Assembly: GCA_027487485.1 (NCBI GenBank)
Contig: JAIYDN010000073.1
Coordinates: 1 to 34,184 of the forward strand
Direction: 5' to 3'
Length of the DNA: 34,184 nucleotides
From: Planctomycetaceae bacterium
GTDB taxonomy: Bacteria > Planctomycetota > Planctomycetia > Pirellulales > Pirellulaceae
The position numbers and the translations under genes are program-made. Of this stretch, positions 3,891 through 31,728 are shown piece after piece (position 1 is the stretch's first letter; each line of letters opens with the position of its first letter). The notes below the pieces were generated by a model. The model had not been told where the DNA came from, made no database searches, and worked only from the letters and a program-made list of their open reading frames with translations.

Positions 3891-3970
3891 GTCTATCCGA
3901 TAGCCCTATCTCCCAGACTGAACTAGTTGCCAAGCCGTGAACGCGGTAGAATGCTCAGGGCCGTTAAATT

Positions 3971-6256: not shown

Positions 6257-6273
6257 GCACGGAGCATCCACAC

Positions 6274-9200: not shown

Positions 9201-9486
9201 CGGCCTCGAGCGACTTGCACCGGTGCTTATGACGGCACTTACCGCTGGCATTGCACTCGTGCCACTAGTGCTCGCAGCAGGAGAACCGGGAAAGGAAATT
9301 CTCTACCCAGTGGCAACGGTCATATTGGGAGGAGTTGTGAGTTCAACAATGCTGGACTTCTTTGTTCATCCGGCATTGTTTTGGTTGTTCGGAATGAGAT
9401 CAGCGCAGCGCGTTGTCCAGAGTTCCAAACAACGTATCGAACTGAATGAAGAATCAGAGGTGGATACCAATCACGTGTCCAGTTGA
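6274..9486 (+). CDS. Heavy-metal RND efflux pump (CzcA/CusA family)
   Basis: Proton-driven inner-membrane pump exporting metal cations from the periplasm or cytoplasm. It has 1070 residues, normal for the family. It shows the N-terminal helix followed by the DVFPDLNRPRVVI motif, PISSIMGQI, ELRTAADWVVRQRLL, PGVSQV, six-helix blocks after about residue 350 and again after about 890, and the RNGVLLLQHY segment. The TM4 proton-relay region reads GELVDDAIVDVEN (residues 415-427), with Asp419, Asp420, Asp424 and Glu426. As I recall the family literature, this differs from both the classic CzcA form (DFG...DGA) and the CusA form, so the metal cannot be assigned. It lies directly downstream of its adaptor. 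Confidence 0.96.
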   Translation: MLNAVIRFALQQRLLVIAVSIFLVAFGAWQTMRMPIDVFPDLNRPRVVIMTEAMGMAPEEVESLITFPIETTMNGANGVEAVRSSSGVGISVVYVEFAYGTDIYTDRQIVAERMQMVQDRLPKGIQPQLAPISSIMGQILMLGMWSDDGNVPPMELRTAADWVVRQRLLTIPGVSQVFTMGGERKQFQVLVDPSAMSRFGVTLEQVEQAVRRSNVNGTGGYLDRQGPSELLVRSLGRVTSIADLETLPVTIRDGRPILLSQVAQVHEGAQIKRGDSSAFVRRDSVDGKPNPDFSGGPAVVLTVNKQPGADTRRVTDDVLRAIEEIRPSLPAGVRIEPTYSQKSFIERAIKNVEEALRDGVILVVIILFLFLMNIRTTFITLTAIPLSLFMTAIVFAVFGLSINTMTLGGIAVAMGELVDDAIVDVENIFRRLKENRLAGTKVNPLLVVFRASAEVRRSIVFSTMIVILVFLPLFALSGMEGKLFAPLGVAYIVSILSSLIVSLTVTPVLSYWLLGFSKSKEHEVDGFVLRGFKWLGERIIRFSLALPYFNLAATLMLVALAGLFLSRLERDFLPPFNEGTIQLNVVLPPGTSLAASNDISRTVEQSLREIKDVQRFVRRTGRAELDEHAEGVNMSEFLIELDPTSPRSREEQLNEIRSAMESIPGIVTAVEQPIAHLISHMLSGVKAQVGIKIYGDDLDLLRQKAEAVKAEMQTVPGVTDLLIEPQVIIPQLRIEMNRAALTQYGLSAEEVNNYVQTAMNGAVVSEVLDGMRTFDLVVRMKDEYREDIGGLKRLAIHLPEGGTVPLGSIANIYESGGPNAVNRENVRRRVVIQCNVKDRGVVDVVRDIQKAIKPIVASLPPGYYPTYEGQFQSQQSASQMIAILFAVALLGVFFVLYTLFRSINLALQVMAALPMAFIGSVAALVWTGQTVTIAAMVGFISLAGIASRNGVLLLQHYLHLVEFEGESFTKSMIVRAGLERLAPVLMTALTAGIALVPLVLAAGEPGKEILYPVATVILGGVVSSTMLDFFVHPALFWLFGMRSAQRVVQSSKQRIELNEESEVDTNHVSS

Positions 9487-10809: not shown

Positions 10810-10914
10810 TGACTAATCGTTTATTGATGGAGGTATTCGTACCATCACTTCGCGTCGGAGTACTCAAGTCATCGCTTTTTGTGCAAGTTATTTACACTGG
10901 GAAGAGTCTGCGAT

Positions 10915-13389
10915 ATGGAGAAACTAAAGATCGAGTATCGATTGCTGTTCCCAGCTGAGGTAACTCCCGAGGATGCGTGCATTGAGCGATTGATAACGAC
11001 ACTAACATCAAAATCCGGTGTCGATTCGGCGCACTTGGTTGCCTCGGCAACAGATGATGCAAATGTTGTTTGCATCCACTACGATCCGTCGGTTGTGTCG
11101 ACAGCTGAACTTCGCGATGCTGCGATAACAGCGGGAGCAACACTCGATGCGACGTACGGCCATGTGTTCAAGACAATTCCTGCGACCCATATGCGGCGTG
11201 CGTCGGCAATTGAAGCTCATCTCACTAGGATTGACGGTGTCCTTGAGGCCGTTGTTTCTCCAGACGGAAAGATTCGTATTGAATTCGATCGAAGGCTAAC
11301 GAACGAATCCATAATAAACGCATCACTTCAGGCCTGGACGAATGACTCCATAGAACCCAAAACGCCGCAGGCCGGAGATAACCATGCAGAACACGAACAC
11401 GCGCATCACGGTAACCACGCCGAATCGCCGCATTCGCATGGCGGGGTCTTTGGCCCGCAGACCGAGCTGATTTTTGCTGGACTTTGCGGTGTGTTTTTAC
11501 TCGTTGGCTGGTTATTGGAAACTTTCTTCGAGCTCGACGCGTGGGTGCCTTTTGGATTGTTCCTCGTCGCATACTTTTTCGGAGGCTATTACACCGTCAC
11601 CGAAGCGATCGAGAAGCTTCGTTCGGGCAAGTTCGAAATCGACTTTCTAATGATTGTGGCTGCTGCAGGCGCGGCGACTTTAGGAGCATGGGCTGAAGGA
11701 GCTCTATTGCTGTTCTTGTTCAGCATTGGCCATTCGCTAGAAGGATTCGCGATGGGCCGCGCTAAGCAGGCTATTGAGGCGCTAGGTCATCTAGCTCCAC
11801 GCACGGCTCGAGTTCGTCGTGGTGGACTCGAATCGGATGTGCTGGTCGAAGAGTTGGTCGTGGGTGATGTCGTGGTGATCAAGCCAGATGAGCGAGTACC
11901 AGCCGATGGTTTTGTCATCGCGGGTTCCTCCAGTGTGAACCAAGCTCCCATCACTGGCGAAAGCGTTCCCAGTGATAAGCGTGCAATTGCCGATGGTGAT
12001 GCTGCAGCCGCAGATCCCGAGACGTTGCCAGCCGAGAATCGCGTGTTCGCGGGTACGATCAATCAGTCTGGATCACTGGAAATCCAAGTCTCCAAATTGG
12101 CTTCGCAAAATACTCTGGCTCGCATTGTGACAATGGTCAGCGAAGCCGAGACACGAGTTTCGCCGACTCAAAAGTTTACGAAGAAGTTCGAGCGGTACTT
12201 TGTGCCTTCGGTCATCGTCGGCGTGATTCTGTTACTGTTCGCACCGCTGATCATTGAGGAAGCATTTAGAGATTCCTTCTACCGAGCGATGGCTGTCCTA
12301 GTTGCCGCCAGTCCATGCGCACTGGCAATCGCGACACCGAGTGCAGTTCTTAGCGGCGTAGCTCGAGCTGCTCGCAGTGGAATTTTGATCAAAGGTGGCG
12401 GACCTTTAGAAAGCTTAGGAGGTCTCGATTCGATCGCGTTTGATAAAACGGGTACGCTTACCGAAGGCGAACCCAAAGTTACCGATGTTCGCACCGCTGA
12501 CGACGTCGATGAAACTGAATTGCTAAGGATCGTCATTGCCGTTGAAACCCTCAGCAAGCACCCGCTCGCACGAGCGATTGTGCGTGATGGAAAGAAGAAG
12601 TTGAGTGATGACAGCAGTGGAAGTCGAGGTGAAATCCCACAGGCCACCGATTTGAAGAGCATTACCGGCCGTGGAATTCAGGCGATGGTCGATGGCGACC
12701 TCGTTCATGTTGGCAAAGATGATCTGTTTGCTGAAGTCGAAGGATCGCCGCTGCCCGATGCGATCCGAGCGATTGTTGAGTCACTCGAGCAAAACGGTCG
12801 CACGACAATGATCGTCCGTCGAGCGGAACGTTACCTGGGGGTGATTGGACTGATGGATACGCCACGCGAAGCTTCCAAGCGAACGATCTCGCGACTGCGG
12901 GATCTCGGAATCAAGCGAATGATCATGATTTCTGGCGACAACCAGAAAGTTGCCGACGCGGTTGCCAAAGAAGTAGGTCTCGATGAAGCTCGGGGTGATT
13001 TGATGCCCGACGACAAGGTCGCTGAAATTAAGAAGCTTGAAGGTGAAGGTGGCGTGGCCATGGTTGGTGACGGAGTCAACGACGCCCCAGCAATGGCCAC
13101 AGCTTCGGTGGGTATCGCGATGGGAGCCGCTGGTAGTGATGTCGCATTGGAAACAGCCGATGTTGCTCTGATGGCTGACAACCTAGACAACTTGCCACTC
13201 GCGATTGGACTAAGCCGAGCGACACGGCGCATCATACGTCAGAATCTTTGGATGAGCCTAGGCATGGTCGCGTTCTTAGTCCCCGCCACAATATTTGGAC
13301 TCAACATTGGCCCTGCCGTCGCCTTGCATGAAGGGAGTACGTTGGTAGTCGTATTCAATGCGTTGCGGTTGCTGGCGTATCGAGACTGA
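10915..13389 (+). CDS. Heavy-metal P-type ATPase, P1B-4-like
   Basis: ATP-driven export of a transition metal from the cytoplasm. With ATG 10915 (GGGAAGAG before it) it has 824 residues. Two N-terminal domains (about residues 5-75 and 85-150) look like HMA folds, but I see no CxxC metal site in them; a His-rich linker follows (EHEHAHHGNHAESPHSHGG). Catalytic parts are TGES, SPC (466-468) in the membrane, DKTGT with the phosphorylated Asp510, SKHPLARA and GDGVNDAPA. The last helix has HEGST (His805). SPC plus HEG-x-T is the P1B-4 signature (Co/Zn/Cd-type pumps such as CoaT or HMA1), unlike the CPC of CopA and ZntA. It closes cluster 1. Confidence 0.93.
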   Translation: MEKLKIEYRLLFPAEVTPEDACIERLITTLTSKSGVDSAHLVASATDDANVVCIHYDPSVVSTAELRDAAITAGATLDATYGHVFKTIPATHMRRASAIEAHLTRIDGVLEAVVSPDGKIRIEFDRRLTNESIINASLQAWTNDSIEPKTPQAGDNHAEHEHAHHGNHAESPHSHGGVFGPQTELIFAGLCGVFLLVGWLLETFFELDAWVPFGLFLVAYFFGGYYTVTEAIEKLRSGKFEIDFLMIVAAAGAATLGAWAEGALLLFLFSIGHSLEGFAMGRAKQAIEALGHLAPRTARVRRGGLESDVLVEELVVGDVVVIKPDERVPADGFVIAGSSSVNQAPITGESVPSDKRAIADGDAAAADPETLPAENRVFAGTINQSGSLEIQVSKLASQNTLARIVTMVSEAETRVSPTQKFTKKFERYFVPSVIVGVILLLFAPLIIEEAFRDSFYRAMAVLVAASPCALAIATPSAVLSGVARAARSGILIKGGGPLESLGGLDSIAFDKTGTLTEGEPKVTDVRTADDVDETELLRIVIAVETLSKHPLARAIVRDGKKKLSDDSSGSRGEIPQATDLKSITGRGIQAMVDGDLVHVGKDDLFAEVEGSPLPDAIRAIVESLEQNGRTTMIVRRAERYLGVIGLMDTPREASKRTISRLRDLGIKRMIMISGDNQKVADAVAKEVGLDEARGDLMPDDKVAEIKKLEGEGGVAMVGDGVNDAPAMATASVGIAMGAAGSDVALETADVALMADNLDNLPLAIGLSRATRRIIRQNLWMSLGMVAFLVPATIFGLNIGPAVALHEGSTLVVVFNALRLLAYRD

Positions 13390-14884: not shown

Positions 14885-16018
14885 TCAGTATCGATATTCT
14901 GCCATCATCCCCGAGCCATCCCCAGTTGAATAGGGATAAAACCGCCATCGAGCGTTAGGGTTATCGGTCGCGTCGATCGCACTCGCCGCCAAGTATGCCA
15001 TCCACCATCCTAACGCAACTTGTGACGGATAGTGCGCGTTATCGTTTACTCGCGAAAGTGGTGCGATGGCTGAACCTGCATAGAAGAGAACCTTATAGCC
15101 ACGGTTTTCAGTCATCTTGGCGGCGGTGATGAAAGGCAGCGAACCCATAAACGCGTGACCGCTGATTCCATTGTTGTCTCGCATCGGATGCCATTCCGAA
15201 CTTTCATCTGTTTCAGTCGGTCTTGAACCTCCCGTTACCTGTTGCATGATGATCAATGGCGGCGCGCCTACAACAAAACCTCGAATAGATCGCTCACCCC
15301 ATCGGCCGCTCGTTTCCACAAAGGCATTATCTGGAAACAGTTCACCGGCAGCCCAGGCTGTCGCGAAAACGGGCAGCGTGTACATTCCATTGCCGAGTTC
15401 CTTGCTGGCGTGCAGGGATTCAAACCAATCGTCCGACGTAGCTCCACGGACGCTACTTTGAAAATGTCGATGAATGCCATCATCGATCGATGAGTTTGCC
15501 ATTGCACCACCAATAACTAAGCCTCCACCAAGTAACGTTAGTGACTCTGGCGAATAAAAGTTCTTTTGATCGTCCCACATGCGTTCAACTAGGGAGGACG
15601 GTCGCTCGATTTCAAACAGATTGTTGAAATCTGCTGTTTTCGTTCGGGCACCTGGGAGCGGATCGAATTGCCAGCGATCTGAATCCAAAAGATCTGGACG
15701 CAAGTCGCCGATAGCCGGCGTCCCGTCGACTGTGGAAATCTTCGAATCGTTCGCGACAGTTGAAATAGAGTTGCTAGAGGGATGGGCAGGTGCTTCATCG
15801 ACGGGAGCAGGCTGCGCTGAAATCAGGGTAACCTTCGATTCTCCAATTGGCCTATTGACCTGTCGGACCATCGTTGGAGGAGTGGCAATGGACTGTGAAG
15901 TCACCAACGGAACATGGCACCCCGAAGCGAGCAGCAAAACGCTAGCAATCAGTCCAGCAGCGACCCACGAAGTGAATGTATGTCGGGGGACAACCTCAGC
16001 TATAAATGACAGCATCAT
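14885..16018 (-). CDS. PAP2-family phosphatase-like lipoprotein
   Basis: Protein of 377 residues (start at 16018 or the adjoining ATG 16015). The N-terminus has a hydrophobic stretch and lipobox LASGC (Cys34). A low-complexity Ser/Ala/Pro linker precedes the PAP2 domain of roughly residues 150-360. PAP2 motif 2 is SGH at 286-288 and motif 3 is SRVNDNAH (Ser322-His329), the two catalytic His of the family. The Asp normally four residues after the second His is Gln333 here, so activity is uncertain. The family includes lipid and acid phosphatases. Its promoter faces that of the response regulator across 250 bases. Confidence 0.78.
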   Translation of the reverse strand: MMLSFIAEVVPRHTFTSWVAAGLIASVLLLASGCHVPLVTSQSIATPPTMVRQVNRPIGESKVTLISAQPAPVDEAPAHPSSNSISTVANDSKISTVDGTPAIGDLRPDLLDSDRWQFDPLPGARTKTADFNNLFEIERPSSLVERMWDDQKNFYSPESLTLLGGGLVIGGAMANSSIDDGIHRHFQSSVRGATSDDWFESLHASKELGNGMYTLPVFATAWAAGELFPDNAFVETSGRWGERSIRGFVVGAPPLIIMQQVTGGSRPTETDESSEWHPMRDNNGISGHAFMGSLPFITAAKMTENRGYKVLFYAGSAIAPLSRVNDNAHYPSQVALGWWMAYLAASAIDATDNPNARWRFYPYSTGDGSGMMAEYRY

Positions 16019-16191
16019 GCGTTGGAGGAACTTTCACTCGCCAGGGCGGGGTCGCGACCTACGGGATTTGACAACTGAACTCGTGGGATTTGGCGACAAT
16101 AGGTGCGAGGAAGTCGAGGCTACAAGCCGAACTTCGGCAAGTTTAGTAATTGTGAGAGAAAATGAGGAGATTCGGGTTGCACGAGATTGGA

Positions 16192-16209
16192 TTCTCATCA
16201 TTTTCTCAT
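16192..16209 (+). promoter_or_regulatory. Box A: direct-repeat operator before the response regulator
   Basis: Two copies of TTCTCAT start 11 bases apart (7-4-7 layout, as in a PhoB box). The box ends 10 bases before a TAGAAT -10 candidate. It is likely bound by the adjacent OmpR-type regulator (autoregulation). A degenerate inverted copy (GTGAGA, then ATGAGG ten bases on) lies at 16152-16167. Confidence 0.65.
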
Positions 16210-16219
16210 CTTCTACACC

Positions 16220-16225
16220 TAGAAT
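16220..16225 (+). promoter_or_regulatory. Candidate -10 element TAGAAT of the two-component operon
   Basis: TAGAAT sits 10 bases after box A, the usual distance when an OmpR/PhoB-type activator replaces the -35. The same hexamer occurs at the same place after box B. Confidence 0.45.
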
Positions 16226-16268
16226 CCAACTCACCCGTTCCAAGATCCTATTTTCCGAAGATTCGTTT

Positions 16269-16946
16269 ATGCGTGTGCTGGTAGTGGAAGATTACGATCC
16301 CATCCGTAGCGCGGTTGTTCAGGCTCTTACCGAGGAAGGGTATGCTGTTGATTCTACGGACAATGGACGCGATGGGCTGTGGCACGCCAAGTCTGCGGAA
16401 CATGACGTAATCGTGCTCGACATTTTGTTACCCCATGTCAACGGAATAGAAATCCTCCAAACGCTGCGAAGCAGTAACAACCATGTTCCCGTGTTATTGC
16501 TCACAGCCCTCGACGAGGTTGATCAGCGAATCAAGGGTCTCGACGAAGGTGCCGACGACTATTTGGTCAAGCCTTTTGCGATCGCTGAGTTGGTCGCGAG
16601 AGTAAAAGCGCTTCTTCGTCGCAGTTTTGGAGATGGAAATTCTATTATTGAGATTGGATCGCTAAGAATCGACACTTCCGCTCGATTGGTTTTCTGTAAT
16701 GACAAAGCGGTAGAATTAACGGCTCGCGAATACGGATTGCTCGAATTGCTTGCGCGACGACGTGGCAAAGTCGTTTCACGAGCGGAGATCTGGAAAAGCT
16801 TGTACGACTTCCAGGCCGACTCCTCAAGCAATGTCGTCGATGTTTACATCGGATACCTACGCAAAAAGCTCGATCCTGCTCAAGGCCCATCGATGATCCA
16901 AACTAGACGAGGACTCGGCTACGTACTTACTGGTCGAAATGAATAA
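16269..16946 (+). CDS. OmpR/PhoB-family response regulator
   Basis: DNA-binding response regulator of 225 residues. The receiver domain (about 1-115) has the acidic pair Glu7-Asp8, phospho-acceptor Asp51 in VLDILLP, Thr79 and Lys101 (LVKPF). The winged-helix DNA-binding domain (about 125-222) has LTAREYGLLELLA, the SSNVVDVYIGYLRKKLD segment and the closing IQTRRGLGYVL. The frame stays open well upstream, but ATG 16269 gives the exact family N-terminus (MRVLVVEDY). Its stop and the kinase start share one base (TAATG), so the pair is coupled. It resembles CusR/CopR-type metal regulators, and it probably binds boxes A to D. Confidence 0.95.
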   Translation: MRVLVVEDYDPIRSAVVQALTEEGYAVDSTDNGRDGLWHAKSAEHDVIVLDILLPHVNGIEILQTLRSSNNHVPVLLLTALDEVDQRIKGLDEGADDYLVKPFAIAELVARVKALLRRSFGDGNSIIEIGSLRIDTSARLVFCNDKAVELTAREYGLLELLARRRGKVVSRAEIWKSLYDFQADSSSNVVDVYIGYLRKKLDPAQGPSMIQTRRGLGYVLTGRNE

Positions 16947-18346
16947 TGTTTCCATCACTTCGCTCTCGCCTTATCACACTCATCGGTATAGGCACTACAG
17001 CCTTATTCTTAGTTGGTTCAATCGCGACTTCGCTGATATTTGAGTCATCTCTCTGGTCCGAATTTGATTCAGCCTTATTCGATCGAGCTCGTAATCTAGG
17101 ACAACTGATAGAGCAGGAAGAGCATGGCCTAAGCTTTGAATGGCTCGAAGGAGTCGGCTTGCCGAGTCCAATATGGGCCGAACGCGAGGTGTTAACGGTT
17201 TGGTCCGATGGGAAAATGTTGGAAGTCTTGCCACCCAAAGCGACACCCATAAATGTTCCACTAATTTCAGGGCCTCGAGCATTTGACATAAGGTTGGATG
17301 ATGGCACTCGCGCTCGAGCCATCGAGTTTCGTTTCGCACCGCGAATTGTTATTGAAGGGGATGTCGAACAGCAAAAGCTGCTTGTTCAGCCAAAAGTCTC
17401 TTTGATGTTTGCCCGATCTACTAGTGACATTCAGTCGGCGATTTCTGTTTTGCGATGGACTCTGGCCGGGGTGGGACTACTTGGAGTCTTCGGAACTCTT
17501 GGAATGTCGTGGTTCGTTGTTGGAATCGGACTGTTACCGATTCAATCAGCAACACAGCGTATTGGGGCAATTCGCGCAGGCACGCTTAGCGAGCGGTTGC
17601 AAGATATCGAATCGCAGCCACAAGAACTAAGACCACTGCTTACCACCATTAATCAGCTATTGGGTCGACTGGAACAGGCATTTGCTCGGGAGCGATCGTT
17701 CTCAGCCGATGTGGCTCACGAGCTACGCACACCGCTGGCGGGCTTACGCGCTCAGTTCGAACTCGCACTGGCCCGCACTCGCTCGAGTGAGGATTATGTA
17801 CAAACCATACGCAAATGCTTGGAAATCACGATACAGACCGGGGCTATTGTTGAAAGCTTGCTGGAGACCACTCGAAACGCCAAGGTAACACATGCCATGG
17901 AATCGGTCCCATTGCGTGTCTTAATAGTGGACCTTTTGAAAGAATCTGCGTCGATCATTTCGATACGTCATTTAGAAGTGGACAATCAAGTGCCGACCCA
18001 CTTGGCGATAAACACGGATCAGCAGTCGTTGACGATTATTCTGCGGAATGTGCTACAGAACGCAGTTAGCCACTCCGACGTACATTCATCGGTTGAGATA
18101 TCTACCAGCGAAGTTAATCTTGGATGCTTGATTGTTGTTTCTAATCGAGCCTCTACATTCCCCGTTGATGACATTGATAAGGTATTCGACCGCTTTTGGC
18201 GTGCCGATCCGTCACGGCATGAAACAGGATGCCACAGTGGTTTGGGGCTATCACTTTGCCAGCGGCTCGCTCAGCGTTGCGGTGCGAATCTAGAAGCCTC
18301 CTGTGACGGGGGCGTATTTCGCATGAAGATCTTCGTTCCCTTTTAG
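16946..18346 (+). CDS. Sensor histidine kinase, heavy-metal-sensor type
   Basis: Membrane kinase of 466 residues. TM1 spans about 10-32, a periplasmic sensor of about 130 residues follows, TM2 spans about 167-193, and a HAMP linker runs to about 245. The dimerisation/phospho-acceptor helix has SFSADVAHELRTPLAGLRA with His258. The ATPase domain has the N-box NVLQNAVSHS, the F-box FDRFWRADPSRHE and the G2 box GLGLSLCQRL. The DxGxG box is poorly kept (SNRAS in its region), as in other CusS/IrlS-like kinases. It starts inside the stop of the regulator gene. The periplasmic loop has no obvious Cys/His cluster, so the ligand is open. Confidence 0.93.
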   Translation: MFPSLRSRLITLIGIGTTALFLVGSIATSLIFESSLWSEFDSALFDRARNLGQLIEQEEHGLSFEWLEGVGLPSPIWAEREVLTVWSDGKMLEVLPPKATPINVPLISGPRAFDIRLDDGTRARAIEFRFAPRIVIEGDVEQQKLLVQPKVSLMFARSTSDIQSAISVLRWTLAGVGLLGVFGTLGMSWFVVGIGLLPIQSATQRIGAIRAGTLSERLQDIESQPQELRPLLTTINQLLGRLEQAFARERSFSADVAHELRTPLAGLRAQFELALARTRSSEDYVQTIRKCLEITIQTGAIVESLLETTRNAKVTHAMESVPLRVLIVDLLKESASIISIRHLEVDNQVPTHLAINTDQQSLTIILRNVLQNAVSHSDVHSSVEISTSEVNLGCLIVVSNRASTFPVDDIDKVFDRFWRADPSRHETGCHSGLGLSLCQRLAQRCGANLEASCDGGVFRMKIFVPF

Positions 18347-18355
18347 TTCCATCGA

Positions 18356-18386
18356 TGCGCCGTGAATGGGTTACATGCACGGCGCA
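18356..18386. terminator. Hairpin between convergent genes
   Basis: A perfect 9-bp stem (TGCGCCGTG at 18356-18364 with CACGGCGCA at 18378-18386) with a 13-base loop lies between the kinase stop and the stop of the facing PepSY-like gene. There is no clear T run on either side. It is likely a bidirectional transcription stop. Confidence 0.5.
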
Positions 18387-18412
18387 AGACGGTTTACGTT
18401 TACTAAGTCCAG

Positions 18413-19360
18413 CTACTTACCTTTGTTTGACTTTCCATCTTCGAGGTGATGCTTGGTTTCTTTGTCATCTTGGTCGTCATCATCATCGTCTTCGTCGTCA
18501 TTTTCGTCGTCATCTGCGTCCCTGCCAACCGAAACTGTGATTTCGCGACCAGTCGCATCCACGTACAATTCGACGGCTTTGCCGTGGCTGACCTTTTCGA
18601 ATTCATACAGAACAATTGTCTTACGCTCGAGTTTCAACTCAGCCTTTCCAGCGAACTTTTTGGCCGAGGCTTGGAGCTCCTTAGGTAATTGCTCCATCGA
18701 CAACGAAGTCTCTTCAGCGATCACACTGCCTGCGGCCGTGACGATTACTTCAATTTTGGCGTCCCCCTTCATCCAAGCTGCTTCGTAAACCGTCTGGCCG
18801 GCTTCCGTTATTGACTCGACGCCAACCAATTTGGCAGCACCGGAACTAGCTTCGATTGCTTTCCGTGCCGCAGCGGGGACGTCATCGATACTCAACTTCT
18901 TCACGACTTCGGAGCTGTGCTCACCATCGTCGTCTTCGTCGTCCTCACCATCGTCGTCGTCCTCGCCATCTTCGTCTTCTTTGTCAGCTTTCTTGCTTTT
19001 TGCTGATTCACCGGACTTGGCGTTCTCGGACTCCTCTTGTTTCCCGTGCTCGTCGCCGATGATTTCAATCCCAATCAACCTACCTTTGTCATTGAATACC
19101 AATTCAACGATTCCGCCTTCGACTTTCGCTTCAATTTCATAGACGTTCCTTCCGTCTTCAGTGCTCAATTCAACTTTACGGATATCATTGCTATCCGTTA
19201 CCAAATTGACGGCCTCTAGTACTCTTTTGGGTAAATCCGCAAGCTTGATGGTTTCTTCTTTTGTCGCATCTGCAGCTTGTCCCCAACTAGACTCCGTCAA
19301 GGTGGCTATTGCCAATACCATCAGGCTCATACACTTAAGCCAAGAATTTCGAGTTCCCAT
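18413..19360 (-). CDS. Secreted acidic PepSY-like protein with three repeats
   Basis: Protein of 315 residues with the start at ATG 19360 (GGAG nine bases upstream); earlier in-frame starts are less likely. Residues 1-28 form a signal peptide. Three PepSY-like units follow, at about 38-102, 155-218 and 218-280. Each has a helix (LPKRVLEAVN, VPAAARKAIE, LPKELQASAK) and two or three strands with a Y-E pair (VYEIEAK, VYEAAW, LYEFEK). Unit 1 is parted from unit 2 by an Asp/Glu run (126-147), and an Asp-rich tail (281-300) closes the protein. The acidic runs could bind cations. The gene faces the two-component operon and has box B at its promoter. PepSY-like proteins often lie next to such systems. 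Confidence 0.85.
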   Translation of the reverse strand: MGTRNSWLKCMSLMVLAIATLTESSWGQAADATKEETIKLADLPKRVLEAVNLVTDSNDIRKVELSTEDGRNVYEIEAKVEGGIVELVFNDKGRLIGIEIIGDEHGKQEESENAKSGESAKSKKADKEDEDGEDDDDGEDDEDDDGEHSSEVVKKLSIDDVPAAARKAIEASSGAAKLVGVESITEAGQTVYEAAWMKGDAKIEVIVTAAGSVIAEETSLSMEQLPKELQASAKKFAGKAELKLERKTIVLYEFEKVSHGKAVELYVDATGREITVSVGRDADDDENDDEDDDDDDQDDKETKHHLEDGKSNKGK

Positions 19361-19425
19361 GTTTCCCATCTCCAAATAGTGCTTTTGTTTTGCGGCGAAT
19401 GACACAGGTCGCCAAGTTGCGGCAG

Positions 19426-19431
19426 ATTCTA
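19426..19431 (-). promoter_or_regulatory. Candidate -10 element TAGAAT of the PepSY-like gene
   Basis: On the minus strand TAGAAT lies 11 bases after box B and about 65 bases before ATG 19360. It matches the arrangement at box A. Confidence 0.45.
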
Positions 19432-19442
19432 CGCAGAGCCGC

Positions 19443-19460
19443 ATGAGAGGATGATGAGAG
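19443..19460 (-). promoter_or_regulatory. Box B: direct-repeat operator before the PepSY-like gene
   Basis: On the minus strand, two copies of CTCTCAT start 11 bases apart, oriented towards the PepSY-like gene. This is the same 7-4-7 layout as box A. Confidence 0.65.
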
Positions 19461-19520
19461 GCGTAAGATAAAGTTTTCGAGAAGCCCGAGTCTCTTAGAG
19501 TTGCGTTCTTCCCTAGTCGA

Positions 19521-19538
19521 CTCTCATTCAGTTCTCAT
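19521..19538 (+). promoter_or_regulatory. Box C: direct-repeat operator before the second TolC gene
   Basis: CTCTCAT and TTCTCAT start 11 bases apart, oriented towards the TolC gene that begins at 19713. No good -10 is seen 10-11 bases downstream, so the start of transcription is unclear. The region 19361-19712 holds only boxes B and C as recognisable features. Confidence 0.6.
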
Positions 19539-19712
19539 AAATCGACCTGTCAGTCCGATTGCAACGATCGAATGGATTTCACGTCCAGTAACAATTGCGA
19601 GGTCCATCTTATCGAAGGTGAACGAAGTGCACTGTCGCGTTGTAGCGGTCGAAACAATGATTAGCGAAATACGTTTTGTAAGTCTTGCAATCATTGATCT
19701 CGAGAGAACGAC

Positions 19713-21098
19713 ATGGATGTCTACAATCGATTCTTGGCAGTAGCGTTGGCTTTCGTACCGCTATGGATTGCTGGTTGCAAGGCACCCATCGCTTGTTGCG
19801 ATCCGAGTCTCGTATCAAGGCAATTGGCTTGTCGAACGTCTATGTCAATGGAAACAGTTGCCCCTTGCCAAACGCGGATTCCTGCGACGGTCCTTTTGGA
19901 GGACGGGCTTAGCGAAGATGAAGCGGTTCTAACGGCTTTGTCGAATAACTCATTATTTCAAGCGACCTTGGCGCAACTCGGAGTTGCTGGGGGCGATGCC
20001 GTGCAGGCAACATTGCTGGCAAACCCACAGTTCCTGACCTATTTCCCGAGCGGTGCCAAGGAGGGACAGTACACGCTCTATGCCCCAATCGAATCCTACT
20101 TCTTAAGACCCGCTCGCGTCAAAGTAGCCAATCGGGAGTATCGGCGTGTTGGAGAGCAATTGGTTCAAAACGGTCTGAATCTCTCGCGCGACGTGCGACT
20201 GGCTTACGCGGATTGGGCTTTGGCGAAAGAACAAGCCGAACTGGCAACCGAAGCTCAAGAGATTCGGAGCCAGATCTCTAAGCTGACCAACGATCGACTG
20301 AAAGACGGCGATATCAGCGAACTGGAAACCATCGCAGCCAAAGTGGATGTCCTCAACGCGAATGCAGCCTTGGGTGTACAGCAAGCATCGATCAATATCG
20401 CTGAAGCTCGGTTAGCTACGTTGATCGGTTTGCCTCAACTCGGTCAAGCTCTAGTACCTGGAGACTTGTCGATGCCGCTTCTACCCGTTCAAAGCGAAGA
20501 TGAACTCGTTAGTGAAGCTTTAGCATGTCGGCCCGATCTTCACTCGGCTAAATGGGCGGTCGCCGCAGCCCGCGAGCGTACCAAGTTGTCTCGTTGGTTG
20601 TGGCTTAGACTTGACGGAGTACTAGATGTCCGCGATGGCCCTGGATACACACGCACGGGATCAGGCCTCCGTTTTGATGTTCCAATTTTTAATCGTAACC
20701 AAGGTGGCATACTCCGCGCCGATTGGGAACTCAACGCAGCATTACACAACCGTGATGCCATCTCGGATCAGATTGTAGCTGATGTTAAGACAGCGTATCG
20801 GCAGCTGGACCAAGCGTATAGAAACTTGGAAATTCTCAAAAAGGACGTCGAACCTGCGTTAGTCGAGGCGTTGCAAATCGCTAAGAAAGGATTTGAGGAC
20901 GGAGGTTCTGATTACTTGATCGTGTTACAGACTACGAACCAATATTTAATTGCGAAAGGTCAGATCCTGAATCAAACAGCAGCCTGCAACCGCGCAGTTG
21001 CGGAGCTAGAGCGAAGCGTCGGCCGCAGTTTGGTCGCACCTCCATTGGCTGCTGCTGAAGTTCTTGCCGCCACAAGTCCTCCGGCGGATGGTACCTAG
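19713..21098 (+). CDS. TolC-family outer-membrane efflux lipoprotein (second RND set)
   Basis: Outer-membrane duct of 461 residues. Lipoprotein signal with lipobox IAGC (Cys22), then a short Cys-containing linker. The TolC core starts at about residue 60 with SEDEAVLTALSNNSLFQATL. Repeat features include ANPQFLTYFPSGAKEGQYTLY, LNLSRDVRLAYADWALAKEQ, the DVPIFNRNQGGILRADWEL motif of the second half, and TAYRQLDQAYRNLEIL. It opens the second RND set (TolC, adaptor, pump), and box C lies in its promoter region. It is only distantly like the TolC-type protein of cluster 1. Confidence 0.92.
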   Translation: MDVYNRFLAVALAFVPLWIAGCKAPIACCDPSLVSRQLACRTSMSMETVAPCQTRIPATVLLEDGLSEDEAVLTALSNNSLFQATLAQLGVAGGDAVQATLLANPQFLTYFPSGAKEGQYTLYAPIESYFLRPARVKVANREYRRVGEQLVQNGLNLSRDVRLAYADWALAKEQAELATEAQEIRSQISKLTNDRLKDGDISELETIAAKVDVLNANAALGVQQASINIAEARLATLIGLPQLGQALVPGDLSMPLLPVQSEDELVSEALACRPDLHSAKWAVAAARERTKLSRWLWLRLDGVLDVRDGPGYTRTGSGLRFDVPIFNRNQGGILRADWELNAALHNRDAISDQIVADVKTAYRQLDQAYRNLEILKKDVEPALVEALQIAKKGFEDGGSDYLIVLQTTNQYLIAKGQILNQTAACNRAVAELERSVGRSLVAPPLAAAEVLAATSPPADGT

Positions 21099-21118
21099 GA
21101 TTTAAGCCACCATGGTTT

Positions 21119-21136
21119 ATGAGAAGCAGATGAGAG
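21119..21136 (-). promoter_or_regulatory. Box D: direct-repeat operator inside the RND operon
   Basis: On the minus strand, CTCTCAT and TTCTCAT start 11 bases apart, in the gap between the TolC stop and the adaptor start. It points the opposite way to the adaptor gene. TACAAT at 21162-21167 is a possible -10 only a few bases before ATG 21176. Confidence 0.55.
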
Positions 21137-21175
21137 ACGAAAACGCTGACGATTTACGGACTACAATAGACCTCC

Positions 21176-22501
21176 ATGAAATCTTCAGTACGACAATTTG
21201 CTAAATACCGCCCTGCCAGGTTCTTGTTGAACGCAGCCATAGGAAGCTTGCTCTGCATCAATGGCTGCTCGGACAAGGCTGCTCAAAATCCAATCAAAAA
21301 GGCTCCAGCCAAGGTTGAAATGGTGCCTCATGAGACCGAGTTGGCTACTCTTACATTGACTAGCGAAGCGGTTAAACGGCTCGCGATTCAAGTCGTGCCC
21401 CTTGAGCAACGAGAGGTATCACGCCACCGAACTTTGGCAGGTGAAGCCAGCGTTCCCTCAGGCAGATCGATCATTGCATCCGCTCCTGTACCCGGTGTCA
21501 TTGGTGCTGTGAATAACGTGTTCCCACAGCCAGGGAGCAAAGTGGTGGCTGCCCAACCACTGATGATTCTTCAGCCAATGTTGTCACCGGAGCGCGACGT
21601 GCCTACGCCTGCAGAACAGTTTCAAATGACTGGCGCGAAGGCGAATCTGATGGTGGCATTGGTTACCGCTCAAGGTGAAGTGGCACGTAGCGAGTCTGAA
21701 ATCGCTGGACTGCAGATTGCGCGTGATCGAGCGGCCAAGCTACTCGCCGATCGGGCCGGCAGCCGCCGAGCGCTTGATGATGCTGAAGCATTACTGGGTG
21801 TATCTCGTTCCGTACTCGAAGCAGCCAAGCAACGAGAGGTGGAGTTGAGTTCACTGCTAAAGTCGCTCGATAAAGCAAACGCAAACGGACGAGTCGATCC
21901 CGCGTCGCCACTGACGTTGACCGCTCCTGTAGCTGGCGTTGTTCGAAACGTTCAGGTTTCGCCTGGACAGTCGGTGACATCTGCGGCACCACTCTTCGAG
22001 GTCGTGGATCTAAGCACGATTTGGATACGGGTGCCTGTCTATGTCGATCTCCTTCCAAAACTTAAACGCGAACAAGCTGTTCGTCTCGTTTCGCTCGACG
22101 GTTCAACACTTGGAGGCTCATCGCAAGTTGGCAAGCCGATCGCAGCTCCACCGACTGCCGATGCGTCCAGTTCCTCGGCCGACTTGTACTACGAAGTCGA
22201 CAACCGTGAATTGAATTTGATGCCTGGGCAACGAATCGGCATCGACATTCCCATGACAAGTGTCACCGAGGCATTTGTCGTCCCTTCCTCAGCAATTCTC
22301 TATGACATCTATGGTGGAACTTGGGTCTATGTTCAAACATCCAAGTCGGACACAGGTACCAAGTTCACACGTAGCCGCGTGTTACTTGAGTGGGTCGAGG
22401 GAGATTCGGCAATTATCTCCAAAGGTCCAGCAGTGGGTACATTGATCGTGACCGATGGCGCAGCCGAATTGTTTGGGACTGAGTTCGGAGCTGGCAAATG
22501 A
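21176..22501 (+). CDS. RND efflux periplasmic adaptor lipoprotein (second set)
   Basis: Membrane-fusion subunit of 441 residues, shorter than the cluster 1 adaptor and without its His-rich loops. The lipoprotein signal ends at lipobox INGC (Cys31). The lipoyl/barrel region has [23 protein letters not shown] and the second half [21 protein letters not shown] helical hairpin lies at about 145-215. The membrane-proximal end has [20 protein letters not shown]. No Shine-Dalgarno site precedes ATG 21176. Its stop overlaps the pump start as ATGA, so these two are coupled. Confidence 0.92.
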
Positions 22502-25500
22502 GCTGGCTCATTAGAACTTCCCTCGAACTTAGACTGCTTGTCATCATTTTGGCGATTGTGCTGGTAGTCGTTGGCATTCGCAATAGTGACTCGGTGCCGC
22601 TAGATGTCTTCCCGGAATTTGCTCCGCCCCTGGTAGAAATACAAACCGAAGCCCCGGGCATCTCCACAGAGGATGTCGAAAGTCTGATCACGGTGCCAAT
22701 CGAAAATGCCGTCAATGGCATCCCTTTTGTGCAAACCGTCCGCTCGAAGTCCGTTTTGGGCCTTTCTAGCGTGCGCATGATCTTTGAGCCGGGCACGGAT
22801 TTGTTGGTAGCGAGACAACTAGTTCAGGAGCGTCTCGCGCTTGCCCAAGCTTCTCTACCTTTGGTTGCTCGACCTCCCGTAATCTTGCCACCACTATCGT
22901 CGCTCAGTCGTTGTTTGAAAATTGGACTTTGGTCCGATACGAAAAGCCAAATGGAAATGACCACGCTTACCAAGTGGACCATTCGGCCAAGATTGATGGG
23001 TATTGCCGGTGTCGCCAACGTGGCGGTGTGGGGCGAGAAAGATCCGCAATTGCAAGTAGTTGTCGATCCCGTGCGGCTCAATAACCATGGTATCTCGCTC
23101 GATGCCTTGCTCCAAACCGTTCGCGATGCGACCGCCGTCGGTTCAGGAGGTTTTGTCGATACACCGAATCAACGTCTGGCGTTGCGTCACGTGCCTGCAG
23201 TGTACAACCCAGATCAGCTTGGCGAAATTCCGATTCGGACAGGAACATCAAGATCCGTAACCAATCGAATTGCCGGCAGTGCATTGGCTGCCAATGGTTC
23301 GCCGCTCCGAATTCGGGACGTTGCAGAAGTACGATTCGATTTCGCACCGCCGATTGGTGATGCGATCATCAACAATCGACCAGGACTGCTTTTGATAGTT
23401 GAAAAGCAACCGTGGGCAAATACGCTCGACGTGACGCGTTCGGTCGAGAAAGCCATGCTGGATCTAAAACCGGCAATGGATGGAGTGCAGTATGACACGA
23501 CCATTTTTCGTCCAGCGACGTTTATTGAACGCTCGCTTGCTAATCTCAGCCACTCGATGTTGGTTGGATGCATTTTGGTGATCGTTGTTCTCGTATTGTT
23601 TTTATTCGATTGGCGTTGTGCATTGATTAGCGCAACCGCAATTCCACTGTCGCTGATCGCGGCCATGCTGGTGTTGTACTATCGAGGCGGAACAATCAAC
23701 ACCATGGTATTGGCTGGTCTTGTGATTGCCTTGGGCGAGGTGGTTGATGACGCGATCATCGACGTAGAGAACATCATGAGACGATTGCGATTAAACGCGA
23801 TCGCCGAACATCCGCGTTCAGCATTCGGCGTGGTATTTGATGCTTCGATGGAAGTTCGGAGCGCAGTGGTTTACGCTACGATTATCGTAGTTTTGGCATT
23901 CATGCCAGTGTTCTTCTTGACGGGACTCGCAGGAGCATTCTTCAAGCCGCTGGCAGCGGCGTACATTCTGGCAATCCTCGCCTCTCTCGCGGTTGCATTG
24001 ACGGTTACGCCGGCCATGTCACTATTCCTATTGCCAAAGTCTGCAACCAAACGTCACGTTGATGGACCGCTAGTTCTGTTCTTCAAGCGAGTGTATCGGT
24101 TAGTACTTAGTAAAGCCGTTCGCTTTCGCTGGGGAACATTGATTGTGACCTCAGTTATCTTCATTCTAATCGCAGGTACGATTACTCGATTGGGCGAACA
24201 GCTCATGCCCAAATTCCGTGAAACAGACTTCTTGATGCATTGGGTTGAGAAGCCTGGTATTGGTATCGATGCGATGGATCGCATCACTTTACGGGCAAGT
24301 GAAGAAATGATGGCGGTTGACGGCGTTTTGAACTTCGGCTCACACATTGGTCGAGCAACCGTCGCTGACGAAGTGGTCGGTCCAAATTTTACTGAGCTAT
24401 GGATTAGCATTGACGACAAGAAGGACTATGACAAAACGGTGGCCAAAGTCCAAGAGATAGTGGATGGCTATCCGGGCTTGTATCGGGACTTGCTGACTTA
24501 CTTGACGGAACGCATCAAAGAGGTTCTTACAGGCACCAGTGCATCCATCGTCGTGCGAGTCTTTGGCCCTGAAATGGATGAACTAAGGTCAACAGCCAAT
24601 TTGGTTGCAACTCAAATCAAACCGATCGCTGGTGTCACGACGCTTAAGGTCGAACCCCAAGTGTTAGTGCCACAGATTTCTGTGCACATGCGTCCCGAAG
24701 CGGCCTCGCAGTTCAATCTCACTCCCGGCGCTCTAATGCGCAGTGTCACGACTTTGGTCAATGGAATGCAAGTCGGCGAGATCTACAAGGATCAGAACAT
24801 CTTCGGTGTGATCGTGCGTGGGAAAACAGAATTGCACAGTGATCTGCGGACACTTAACGAGTTGATGATTGATACTCCGACGGGAGGACAAGTACCTCTA
24901 GGTGATGTCGCAGAGTTGGCGATTGTTCCAGCGCCCAATGAAATCAAACGTGAAGCTGCTTCGCGACGAATCGATATTACGTGCAACGTCGATGGTCGAG
25001 ATCTCGGTTCCGTCGCCACAGAGATTGAACGGGCCGTTCTTGCCAATGTAAACTTCAAACCCGGCTACCATCCTGAGTTTCTAGGTGAGTACGCAGAAGC
25101 CAAAGCGTCTCGCAATCGACTTTTGCTGCTTTCTATTGCATCTATCTGCGCGATTGCGGTGATCTTATACATTGACTTTCAGTCGTGGAAACTAGTCGGC
25201 ATGATTCTATGCACCTTGCCATTGGCGTTGCTGGGTGGAGTGCTCGGCGTCCACGCTTCCGGAGGTATTTTGTCGCTTGGTTCGCTCGTAGGTTTTGTGA
25301 CCGTGCTCGGCATTGCAGCGCGTAATTCCATTATGCTCATCAGCCACTATCGGCACCTTGCCACCGAGGAGGGCGTTACCAGCCAAATGGAATTGGTGAT
25401 GCGTGGAGCCGAGGAGCGTCTCGCACCGATCATGATGACGGCATTAACCACCGGTCTTGCGCTCGTTCCACTGATACTGACCGGTGAGATACCCGGACAG

Positions 25501-25644
25501 GAAATCGAGTACCCGTTGGGGCTCGTAATCCTATTTGGACTGATCACCGCAACGGTTGTGAATCTCGTCATTCTGCCAATTGTCTGTAGCTTCCGCTTTG
25601 CCCATGCGATCTTTCAAACGCCGGTTCGATCTGCCAACAGTTGA
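22498..25644 (+). CDS. Heavy-metal RND efflux pump (second set)
   Basis: Pump of 1048 residues of the CzcA/CusA family. It shows [19 protein letters not shown], a [14 protein letters not shown] segment where other members have the SS-x-GQI motif, [15 protein letters not shown], and the TM4 region [13 protein letters not shown] (413-425) with Asp417, Asp418, Asp422 and Glu424. The second membrane block has [16 protein letters not shown]. It is the most divergent of the three pumps here; the changed GQI motif may mean a different substrate. It is coupled to its adaptor by an ATGA overlap and ends the operon. Confidence 0.94.
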
Positions 25645-25860
25645 GTTGCTTCACCAGTAAGCTCAATTCGAGAACACACTCCATGAAAATCGTCTCGAAG
25701 CTATTCAGATAGCAAGCACTCCTTCGCATAGTTTTCCCGAATGTTTTGCTCAATCCATACATCCGTAAAAGACGATCAAATATTGAGGCTGTGATAGAAA
25801 ACTGTAGAACTTTTCAAAAATGCGTGCAGGAATGCAAATGCAGATCGGTTGCTAGCAAAC

Positions 25861-27327
25861 ATGGATTATCTGCGAAGCGTCGTCTGTGTTGGCTTTGTTG
25901 CATTGTCAACTTTCTTGACAGCATCAACTCTTCAAGCGCAGGTAGTCCCAACTACTGCCTCGCCTTTCTTACCGAGCAGCGAGGAAAACCTCGAAGTGAT
26001 TGGAGAGACGGACCTGCTAAATCGCATGCAGGCTATGGAATCGCAATCGGTTGAGTTGCGTGAAAAGATTAAGATTCTAGAAGATGCGAACAAGCGGCAG
26101 GATGCCGCCAAAGCAAAGTTACCCAGCGTGACTATCAATGGAGTGTTCCAGGCTGATGCAGTCGCGTTCGGCCAAGATGATGATAGTCGGGACGCCTATG
26201 GACGCGTTGAAGGTGGTGGAGATTTCCGTCGAGCCAGGCTCAGTGCAAAAGGGGCCGTCACGGATCGCATGGACTACTTCATGCAAATGGACTTTGCCTT
26301 CTTCGGAAGACCGACCTTCACCGATTTATGGGTGGACTTCAAAGACGCGGGCCCACTCGGTACTGTTCGCGTTGGCCAATGGAAGCAACCTTTCTCTTTG
26401 GAAGTCGTAAGTAGTTTTCGGTACACGACCTTTATGGAAAGGGCGGGCACATTTCAAGCATTCACTCCGTTTCGTCACCTTGGGATCGGATTCTACGATA
26501 ACTCAGACGACCTCAACTGGACTTGGGCTGCTTCTTACTTTCGAACCGGACAAGACCAGTTTGGTGGATCGTTAAGTACAGACGGCGGAAATGGGTTGGC
26601 AGGTAGATTGACTCACCTTCTCTGGTACGATGGCGCTAAGGGCGAGGATTACCTACACGTTGGAGCTGGCTATTTTTTAAATGCGCCGCCCAATGAAAGA
26701 GCTCGATTCCGGAGTATTCCTGAAATCTACGTTGGTGAGTTTGTTGTGCCAGCTGGAGAGCCTATTGGTACCAGTGGTCAAGCGGTTCCGGATGTAGCCA
26801 ATGGAACGCCCTTCTTTGTTGATACTGGAGTGCTGAATGGTACGAGCCTGTCGCAAAGTTTTGGAACTGAGGCACTGTGGGTTCGAGGGCCTCTGTCTTG
26901 GCAAAGCGAAGCGATCGGAACGTTGGTCGACACATCCACAGTGGGCAACGGTTTCCTTTGGGGCGGCTACTCACAGGTTGGCTTCTTTTTGACCGGTGAG
27001 CACCGTCCCTATGATCGTAAGGCGGGTGCAATTGACCGAATCATTCCTTGCAATAGCCTTTCAAAAAACAGCCGCGGCCTCGGAGCATGGGAAGTTGCCG
27101 CGCGTTGGTCCTACCTGGACCTTACCGACAAGCAAATTCAAGGCGGTGACATGCAAAACATGACCATTGGCTTGAATTGGTACGCAAACCCGTATTGCAA
27201 ATGTGTTTTTAACTACATCCATTCTTGGGCCGAATCGCGTCCGATCCGCAATGGAAGTATTGTTGGCAATCAGTTGATCTCATCGGAAACAGATGCTTGG
27301 GGAATGCGAGTCCAATTGGACTTCTAG
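25861..27327 (+). CDS. Porin of the OprO/OprP family
   Basis: Outer-membrane beta-barrel of 488 residues from ATG 25861; a TTG 12 bases earlier is possible but unlikely. Signal peptide at about 1-27 (ends LQAQ). A short coiled coil follows at about 45-80 (LLNRMQAMESQSVELREKI), as is usual in planctomycete porins of this type. The barrel begins with TINGVFQADAVAF and has FRRARLSAKGAVTDRMDYF, VRVGQWKQPFSLEVVSS, and a C-terminal strand ending in VQLDF with the terminal Phe needed for barrel insertion. OprO/P members take up phosphate or polyphosphate; the substrate here is unknown. The 215 bases before it hold no clear promoter. Confidence 0.9.
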   Translation: MDYLRSVVCVGFVALSTFLTASTLQAQVVPTTASPFLPSSEENLEVIGETDLLNRMQAMESQSVELREKIKILEDANKRQDAAKAKLPSVTINGVFQADAVAFGQDDDSRDAYGRVEGGGDFRRARLSAKGAVTDRMDYFMQMDFAFFGRPTFTDLWVDFKDAGPLGTVRVGQWKQPFSLEVVSSFRYTTFMERAGTFQAFTPFRHLGIGFYDNSDDLNWTWAASYFRTGQDQFGGSLSTDGGNGLAGRLTHLLWYDGAKGEDYLHVGAGYFLNAPPNERARFRSIPEIYVGEFVVPAGEPIGTSGQAVPDVANGTPFFVDTGVLNGTSLSQSFGTEALWVRGPLSWQSEAIGTLVDTSTVGNGFLWGGYSQVGFFLTGEHRPYDRKAGAIDRIIPCNSLSKNSRGLGAWEVAARWSYLDLTDKQIQGGDMQNMTIGLNWYANPYCKCVFNYIHSWAESRPIRNGSIVGNQLISSETDAWGMRVQLDF

Positions 27328-31200: not shown

Positions 31201-31722
31201 TGGCTCGCCATTGCTAGTGAGCAACTCGGCCATCAACTTGGTTTGTCCGACGGCAACAAGCCTTCCTCCGGTCGGACCAGCCTGTCGATAGATACCGGCT
31301 ACAACGATCTGTCCCATAATGGACGAGGGCGGAGTCATTTGAGGTATGACACCCTGAGGCAGAATACCCTCGAGAGTTATCAAGCGTTCGCTGACCGTTT
31401 GACGAGCGGCGCGTATATCGGTTGACCAACCGAATTCGATATACAAAACATTGAGGCCGGCGGTTGTTTGGCTGCGGACTGCCTGGACGCCATTGGCCCC
31501 CATCAATGCAATCTCGATCGGCTGCGTAACCAGCGTTTCAACTTCCTCCGTTGCAAGGCCGGGAGCTTCGGTGATGATAACGACTCGTGGCCGATCTAAG
31601 TCGGGAAACACGTCGATAGACATCGTAGTTGTCAGATACGATCCATAGACAAGCACAACCAGACTGGAGATGAGCACCAGCGATCGGTAGCGTAAAGATA
31701 ATCGGATGATGGAATCGAGCAT
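28279..31722 (-). CDS. Heavy-metal RND efflux pump with an inserted domain (third set)
   Basis: Pump of 1147 residues, about 77 longer than the cluster 1 pump, to which it is clearly related. It shows DVFPDLDRPRVVIITEAPG, PPSSIMGQI, ELRTIADWVIRPRLL, TM4 GELVDDAIVDVEN (492-504; Asp496, Asp497, Asp501, Glu503) and RNGILLVTHY. The extra length is one block at about residues 146-233, between the GQI motif and ELRT, where the cluster 1 pump has only nine residues. The block begins GPTGGRLVAVGQ and contains MAELL and KLWRVVDRRKP, recalling the accessory lipoprotein core. AAGGAG, overlapping the adaptor stop, lies seven bases before the ATG. Confidence 0.95.
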   Translation of the reverse strand: MLDSIIRLSLRYRSLVLISSLVVLVYGSYLTTTMSIDVFPDLDRPRVVIITEAPGLATEEVETLVTQPIEIALMGANGVQAVRSQTTAGLNVLYIEFGWSTDIRAARQTVSERLITLEGILPQGVIPQMTPPSSIMGQIVVAGIYRQAGPTGGRLVAVGQTKLMAELLTSNGEPSMKLWRVVDRRKPESWETVPFEFVEPLLIQGDDARRRFHATVKLASGIHEIQFETEAKQLLELRTIADWVIRPRLLKVNGVAEVFMQGGDRKQYQVLLDPTALLEYDVTVQDVERALSESNINASGGFAIKGESERPIRILGRLGTGGHNVIDELLKVPVAKSSKRSILLEQVASVIEGPELKRGDGSVNGKSGIVFTVVKQPHIDTRKLTDNAATAFAEVEASLPADIVINSELFRLKNFIDRGVFNVAEALAIGATLVVIVLFLFLLNFRTTFITLTAIPMSLVMTTLAFRFIGWISGNELSINVMTLGGIAVAMGELVDDAIVDVENIFRRLKENNQREQPLPALEVVYLASKEIRSSIFFGTVVVILVFLPLFALSGVEGRLFTPLGFAYIVSILSSFVVSLTVTPVLSYYLLPTSKATHGEHDGLVLRALKWLVRPLIQFSMRFPSLLVIATWLIVAVAAWQVAQLGRNFLPAFDEGSVQVNVTLPPGSSLQASNQVSTSIDGVFQSMQKSATNPDGAILNFVRRTGRAQMDEHASPVNFGEYILSMNPDAAHNREKMIADLRGRIGKEVPGVDIEVEQPLAHLISHMVSGVYAQIAIKIHGDDLDTLLTLAEKVKSSISDVSGLTPPIVEPIQMTPELHIQLRGDDLAMHGLTRQYVASVLQTALQGQVVSEVLEGQRRFDLLVRLEEAHRTDYANLGRLRIDLPHQEGQSERGQIELRDVATIYEGVGPNSVNRENARRRIVIRCNTEGRDLASAVAEIQQRVNAQVAMPVGYYVEYGGQFESQQNATRLIMILAGLSVVAMFGVLMILFPSVRIVMQILNALPTAFIGGVFALVITQQTLTVASLVGFISLGGIAVRNGILLVTHYFHLMKEEGEVFSKAMILRGSLERLAPVLMTALTAGIGLIPLVIGGQEPGREILYPVATVILGGLITSTFCEFLIHPGLFWKFSGQDAKRLVDAEKSPSI

Positions 31723-31728
31723 TTCAGT

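Follow-up and report, generated by a model that had tools for sequence, protein, structure and literature searches.

A conserved tandem-heptamer box as the predicted operator of an OmpR-type regulator clade in Planctomycetota

The Regulator, PepSY, and Pump Locus

The DNA considered here, 34,184 nt from a Planctomycetaceae bacterium (hereafter the window), is the entire contig C60 of the 7.49-Mb genome G000. At its center lies a two-component system flanked by genes for a PepSY-like protein and a resistance-nodulation-division (RND) efflux pump, and four exact copies of the direct repeat YTCTCAT-N4-YTCTCAT (7-4-7 layout, 11-bp period; hereafter the box) stand between these genes as predicted operators. 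The first gene of the pair encodes an OmpR-type response regulator (16269-16946, + strand) made up of a receiver and a winged-helix output domain, with Pfam Response_reg (PF00072) and Trans_reg_C (PF00486) both above cut-off, and the second a sensor histidine kinase (16946-18346, +) with HisKA and HATPase_c domains. A structure model of the kinase, of moderate confidence, reveals an alpha/beta domain flanked by two long helices. Beyond the kinase gene and on the opposite strand is the gene for a secreted-looking PepSY-like protein with acidic stretches (18413-19369, −, start codon inferred; Pfam PepSY_like and PepSY). A TolC-like outer membrane efflux protein (19713-21098, +; OEP), an RND periplasmic adaptor (21176-22501, +; HlyD_D23 and HlyD_3) and a pump resembling the heavy-metal efflux (HME) class (22498-25644, +; ACR_tran) follow.

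How closely is this locus tied to metals? The best NCBIfam model for the regulator is the heavy-metal model TIGR01387 (229.6, cut-off 279.2), the best-scoring family for the kinase is the heavy-metal model TIGR01386 (177.5, cut-off 292.55) and the top-scoring model for the pump is CusA/CzcA TIGR00914 (567.9 bits, cut-off 701.45), yet none of these cut-offs is reached. Any metal link of the regulator and the pump is accordingly putative, as are the signal and the pump substrate. The two other RND pumps of the window exceed the TIGR00914 cut-off (718.4 and 841.5). The two other RND operons of the contig are of CusA/CzcA type (2295-9483 and 28279-33128), a heavy-metal P-type ATPase is also encoded there (10879-13386), and the motif scan of the window found no box at any of them.

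Four Exact Boxes

Box A (16192-16209, +) lies 59 nt upstream of the regulator start and is followed after 10 nt by the −10-like hexamer TAGAAT (16220-16225, +). Box B (19443-19460, −), the predicted operator of the PepSY gene, is followed after 11 nt by another TAGAAT (19431-19426, −) and has degenerate extra half-sites on either side, being overlapped by a 2-mismatch match at 19454-19471 and a 3-mismatch match at 19432-19449. Box C (19521-19538, +) is a predicted operator 174 nt upstream of the TolC-like gene. Box D (21119-21136, −), 39 nt upstream of the adaptor gene, is a predicted operator in reversed orientation that reads opposite to the gene that follows; between it and the adaptor ATG stands TACAAT (21162-21167, +), the candidate −10 of the adaptor and pump genes. 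All four pairs are exact, and no fifth exact copy exists in the window, which was searched throughout. The coordinates and strands reported in a preliminary description of this DNA are thereby confirmed, as is the TAGAAT that it placed 10-11 bases after boxes A and B. It had also called all four boxes intergenic. Longer frames in a mechanical list of open reading frames overlap boxes A and B, but with the starts that fit the homologues (16269 and about 19369) both do fall between genes.

Thirteen YTCTCAT heptamers occur in the window, eight of which make up the four pairs. Across 1500 dinucleotide shuffles the mean number of exact matches was 0.002 (three in total, with at most one in any single shuffle). 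The earlier chance figure of 0.001 had assumed equal base use. At up to three mismatches there is no enrichment (12 matches against 10.4 by chance).

The Boxes in the Genome and in Related Genomes

Exact sites number five across the genome, against none for a reversed-pattern control. At up to one mismatch there are nine sites against five, and at up to two mismatches 109 against 64; because these counts are near those of the control, degenerate matches are mostly noise, and degenerate matching was dropped as a means of finding targets. The fifth exact site lies on contig C100, with its end 61 nt upstream of a gene for a regulator 87% identical to that of the window. It belongs to a further cassette, in which genes for a regulator, a kinase, TolC, an adaptor and a pump are accompanied by boxes at the three corresponding positions. 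Two of these boxes have one mismatch, and no PepSY gene was detected in this cassette. The exact motif is therefore not scattered at random through the genome: all five sites fall at two paralogous regulator-pump loci. Two off-locus sites with one mismatch were examined and set aside, C50:68323, which lies within a 451-aa open reading frame, and C75:219250, from which the next long frame is 504 bp away and which has no TANNNT at the usual distance.

Within the genus, genome G008 encodes a regulator of identical sequence and carries all four boxes in a nearly identical locus (window 14885-27327 against L093). A survey of 27 genomes of the genus, including G000, found a regulator of at least 85% identity only in these two, all other matches being at most 55% identical. 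Because the remaining 25 genomes have no such regulator, the cassette is accessory in the genus, and it is perhaps mobile. The promoters shared by the window, C100 and G231, a genome from another genus of the same family, could be aligned. Boxes A, C, and D stand out in this alignment while much of the flanks has diverged. Box A is conserved in both counterparts, box C is matched with one mismatch in C100 and exactly in G231, and box D is a run of 17 consecutive invariant columns whose reversed orientation is kept at all three loci. The TACAAT after box D is also invariant. A further block of 16 invariant columns lies upstream of box A (16153-16168) and contains inverted, slightly mis-spaced half-sites of the box type (TGAGAG and ATGAGGA, separated by about 10 bp). 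This block is probably an auxiliary site, to judge from its conservation, and a role in looping is possible.

The window and C100 cassettes are paralogous, so their sites are not independent, and degenerate matches occur near chance levels; it might be argued from this that the copies are accidental or left over from a recent duplication. Such an origin is scarcely credible. The exact sites exceed the shuffled expectation by far, the four boxes of the window differ from one another in spacers and flanks, the boxes persist amid diverging surroundings, and they recur at regulators of 51-58% identity.

Conservation Across a Regulator Clade

Related loci were gathered by protein similarity (to the regulator, the kinase, and a regulator profile) and not by the motif. 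The profile matched 83 of 392 genomes, and 60 new places were taken, with lower-scoring ones left out. Of the clade, 37 members had 300 bp or more of upstream sequence, and these were scored for YTCTCAY-N4-YTCTCAY over up to 1200 bp. In this pattern the final position had been relaxed to Y once the held-out loci G594, G732, and G552 had been seen. Four rows with shorter upstream regions (G390, G478, G526:C80, and G653) and G008, nearly identical to the window, were left out of the counts. An exact box was present in 21 upstream regions, a box with at most one mismatch in 26 and with at most two in 29, where shuffled sequences gave 0, 0.33, and 3.5. The corresponding numbers were 0, 0, and 1 for a sister subfamily of regulators (n = 16; shuffled 0, 0.17, and 1.42), and 0, 0, and 4 for other regulators (n = 41 of 42, L273 not having been entered; shuffled 0, 0, and 2.25). 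The motif is thus conserved upstream of orthologs, and it is present in other orders and classes.

The same element emerged when no motif was preset. Among 34 clade upstream regions, with the window excluded and periods of 9-12 considered, the commonest pair of 5-mers was TCTCA-N6-TCTCA, found in 20. G594, G732, and G552 share the same box and were entered once in this analysis, as opposed to three times in the clade count. Over 22 whole clade genomes there were 27 exact YTCTCAY-N4-YTCTCAT sites against one for the reversed control. Of these, 21 were at the regulator locus and six elsewhere. Three of the latter, each with TANNNT behind it at the usual spacing, are candidate extra target boxes, namely L184 1062-1079 (G631), L185 861-878 (G729), which precedes the gene for a secreted-looking protein, and L183 350-367 (G498). 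Outside the phylum, two Cupriavidus regulators of 47% identity, out of 12 records listed, were examined over 600 bp upstream, and none of the repeats matching in at least 6/7 positions was a tandem of TCTCAT type.

Which Protein Binds the Box?

In a tree of the regulators, box-bearing and box-free members are split by a single branch with support of 100/99. G630, G572, and G498, which have boxes with two mismatches, were labeled as box-bearing, and G390, G631, and G424 were left unlabeled and fall on the box side. The recognition helix differs between the groups, being SNVVDVYIGYLR in the window and SNLVDVHISHLR in the sister rows. The sister subfamily is associated with another tandem of 11-bp period, CTTCAT-N5-CTTCAK, found with at most one mismatch upstream of the regulator in 8 of its 16 loci (L097, L100, L102, L103, L106, L109, L111, and L142). 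Its discovery and its count come from one set of loci, without a shuffle control. It lies more than 1 kb upstream in L106 and L142, and in several loci it is followed by a −10-like hexamer.

The heptamer is one base away from that of the E. coli Pho box, CTGTCAT-N4-CTGTCAT (PMC4832192; published systems are cited throughout for the passages that describe them). A Porin_O_P gene is found downstream and a PAP2 gene adjoins the regulator, and on these grounds the boxes could be Pho boxes bound by the PhoB of this genome, with the locus part of the phosphate regulon. This is very unlikely. With the PhoB model TIGR02154 (cut-off 296.2) the regulator of the window reaches 181.5, less than with the heavy-metal model, and all eight heptamers read YTCTCAT and not CTGTCAT. 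Another regulator, encoded directly after PhoU, scores best with the PhoB model (240.7, also below the cut-off), and the 19 kb around it contain no box of either type at up to two mismatches. The box instead tracks the clade of the window regulator.

Association with a clade does not prove binding, and several loci have a box and no pump. The box could accordingly belong to a different transcription factor that only happens to co-occur with the locus, although we regard this as improbable, if slightly less so than a Pho box. The 7-4-7 direct repeat is a layout of OmpR/PhoB-family sites (PMC4832192), the sister subfamily with its different helix has no box and in half of its loci the other tandem, and among the nine window proteins given to Pfam a DNA-binding domain occurs in this regulator only.

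Promoter Geometry and Mode of Action

In 20 of the 26 loci with a box of at most one mismatch, a −10-like TANNNT hexamer begins at a distance of 10 or 11 nt from the end of the box. With this spacing the downstream heptamer comes to lie on the −35 region. Where the box reads toward the regulator, this arrangement is seen in 18 of 19 cases. The same geometry is described for BqsR of Pseudomonas aeruginosa, whose operator TTAAG-N6-TTAAG has an 11-bp period, places its downstream half over the −35 and activates from there (PMC4682146).

Taken together, it is highly probable that the adjacent response regulator uses the box as its operator, that this operator is conserved across Planctomycetota within the regulator's clade, and that the regulator and kinase form an autoregulated pair which activates the PepSY protein and the HME-like RND pump, as far as comparative sequence evidence can tell. 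A regulator dimer would occupy both heptamers in head-to-tail fashion, with one helical turn between them. On boxes A and B the dimer would cover the −35, 10-11 nt upstream of the TANNNT, and recruit RNA polymerase, resulting in positive autoregulation of the regulator-kinase operon at A and induction of the PepSY protein at B. Boxes C and D would place the TolC gene and the adaptor and pump genes under the same regulator. Because box D is reversed and lies at a greater distance upstream of its −10, its action would come from a different position.

Several observations weigh against this proposal. In the clade, 11 of the 37 members have no box at up to one mismatch and eight none at up to two; four members of one family (G571, G541, G713, and G681) clearly have no box, and neither does the G631 regulator at up to two mismatches. 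Held-out members, which were placed in the clade by their helix and not by the tree, were less often positive when scored with the original YTCTCAT pattern in up to 1500 bp (4 of 15 at up to one mismatch and 9 of 15 at up to two); a comparison set of 42 other loci with more than 400 bp upstream gave 0 and 2. At seven of the 26 loci the box points away from the regulator, and only two of these have the −10. In the window, no TANNNT follows box C at the usual spacing.

Might the regulator bind the boxes but repress, either everywhere or at some of them, such as C or D? Box C without its −10 and the reversed box D would fit, and site position may decide between activation and repression in the case of MtrA (PMC7380067). 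The consistent activator spacing over the −35 in forward loci, and the precedent of BqsR, speak the other way, and repression appears rather unlikely, though it is the likeliest of the alternatives. At boxes A and B the regulator thus likely activates, whereas at C and D conservation alone speaks for a function.

The PepSY Protein and the Pump as Targets

In 10 of 24 loci examined, the gene directly before the regulator encodes a secreted-looking protein with PepSY-like repeats, mostly with an Asp/Glu-rich tail. Pfam PepSY was found in only five of these ten proteins (E ≤ 0.05), but when three groups were compared as profiles, all ten could be linked to the PepSY protein of the window at probabilities of 97.1-99.6%. 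The window gene adjoins the kinase gene, and so lies within four genes of the kinase and regulator. It lies on the opposite strand, beyond the kinase gene, and has left the regulator operon but carries a box and a −10 of its own. The structure model of the protein is moderate (mean predicted local distance difference test score, pLDDT, 64.3) and has three helix-plus-strands units. The sequence profile places it nearest to solved chains of periplasmic proteins whose function is unknown (best E 2.8e-5).

The pump genes have their own boxes in the window, C100 and G231. In G161, a single box is followed by PepSY, regulator, kinase, TolC, adaptor and pump genes, all on one strand. With the pump missing at several box-bearing loci, it looks like a genuine yet optional target, judged by gene order and box position. 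Each part of the original proposal, autoregulation together with control of a PepSY protein and of RND efflux, therefore has comparative support.

Relation to Known Systems

Secreted PepSY proteins encoded beside a kinase and an OmpR-type regulator are exemplified by DbfQRS of Vibrio cholerae, in which DbfQ binds the sensory domain of the kinase DbfS and shifts it toward phosphatase activity (PMC12714742). The planctomycete proteins differ in having several repeats and usually a poly-acidic tail, and in the attached RND pump and the defined operator. PepSY two-component modules have been named for Proteobacteria, Terrabacteria, and Fusobacteria, and the passages on these modules do not include Planctomycetota (PMC12714742). 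BqsRS shares the 11-bp direct repeat with one half over the −35, the activator role (PMC4682146) and PepSY genes nearby (PMC12714742), but its heptamer differs and it has hundreds of candidate sites compared with five exact ones here (PMC4682146). In Microbacterium, UipA binds uranyl via tandem PepSY domains, has a negatively charged face and is encoded next to the two-component system UipRS (PMC8963506). UipA is, however, described as a single-pass membrane protein, uranium sensing by UipRS is not shown there, and the passages of that article on the system give no UipRS operator (PMC8963506). By analogy, the PepSY protein of the window would probably act outside the inner membrane and be a cation-binding partner of the kinase or a feedback signal to it.

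PhoB and mycobacterial PhoP also recognize 7-bp direct repeats with a 4-bp spacer, and the PhoP structure contains a tandem dimer (PMC4832192). Their heptamers differ from the one described here, and the preference of the window regulator for the heavy-metal over the PhoB model sets it apart. CopR, PcoR, and AgrR represent the best-scoring model family for both the regulator and the kinase, and type II activation has been proposed for AgrR (PMC7380067). These proteins bind inverted repeats (AgrR box ATKACA-N4-TGTMAT; PMC7380067), whereas the heptamers here are direct repeats. With the TIGR01387 and TIGR01386 scores also below cut-off, a CopR-type identity is not supported. Among the open-licence PMC papers listed for the heptamer, for PepSY proteins in planctomycetes and for planctomycete regulons, and in passages of PMC10141476, no description of an operator of a planctomycete two-component system was found. 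Systems of the PepSY-kinase-regulator kind are known. What appears to be new is the operator, together with its distribution in the phylum and the PepSY partner with its acidic tail.

What PepSY proteins do next to two-component systems is only beginning to emerge, and here they are tied to a defined, predicted operator. The system also offers a candidate recognition helix, a promoter geometry, a short list of targets and, in the sister subfamily, a matched control, and it predicts a small gene circuit that is directly testable. A bolder proposal, which we think doubtful as a whole, is that of a phylum-wide, three-part cation sensor. The acid-tailed PepSY protein would buffer or report a cation outside the inner membrane and so set the kinase, a private operator would travel with the genes it has captured, those for the PepSY protein and the pump, and changes in the helix would go with changes in the tandem. 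The pairs in question would be VYIGYLR with YTCTCAT and VHISHLR with CTTCAT, and in few loci VLIGRLR with YTGTCAT and HFIAKLR with CTCATG. If this is true, such pairs would make up a natural series from which the DNA code of OmpR-family helices could be read.

That helix and operator covary is possible, although the loci are few. YTGTCAT-type tandems were found in G422, G681c, G526b, and G510 and CTCATG-type tandems in G585b and G721, with neither type in G453, G492, G672, or G697. In L256, L265, L258, L240, L237, and L230, the tandems 30-75 bp upstream of these more distant regulators with other helices are of YTGTCAT or CTCATG type.

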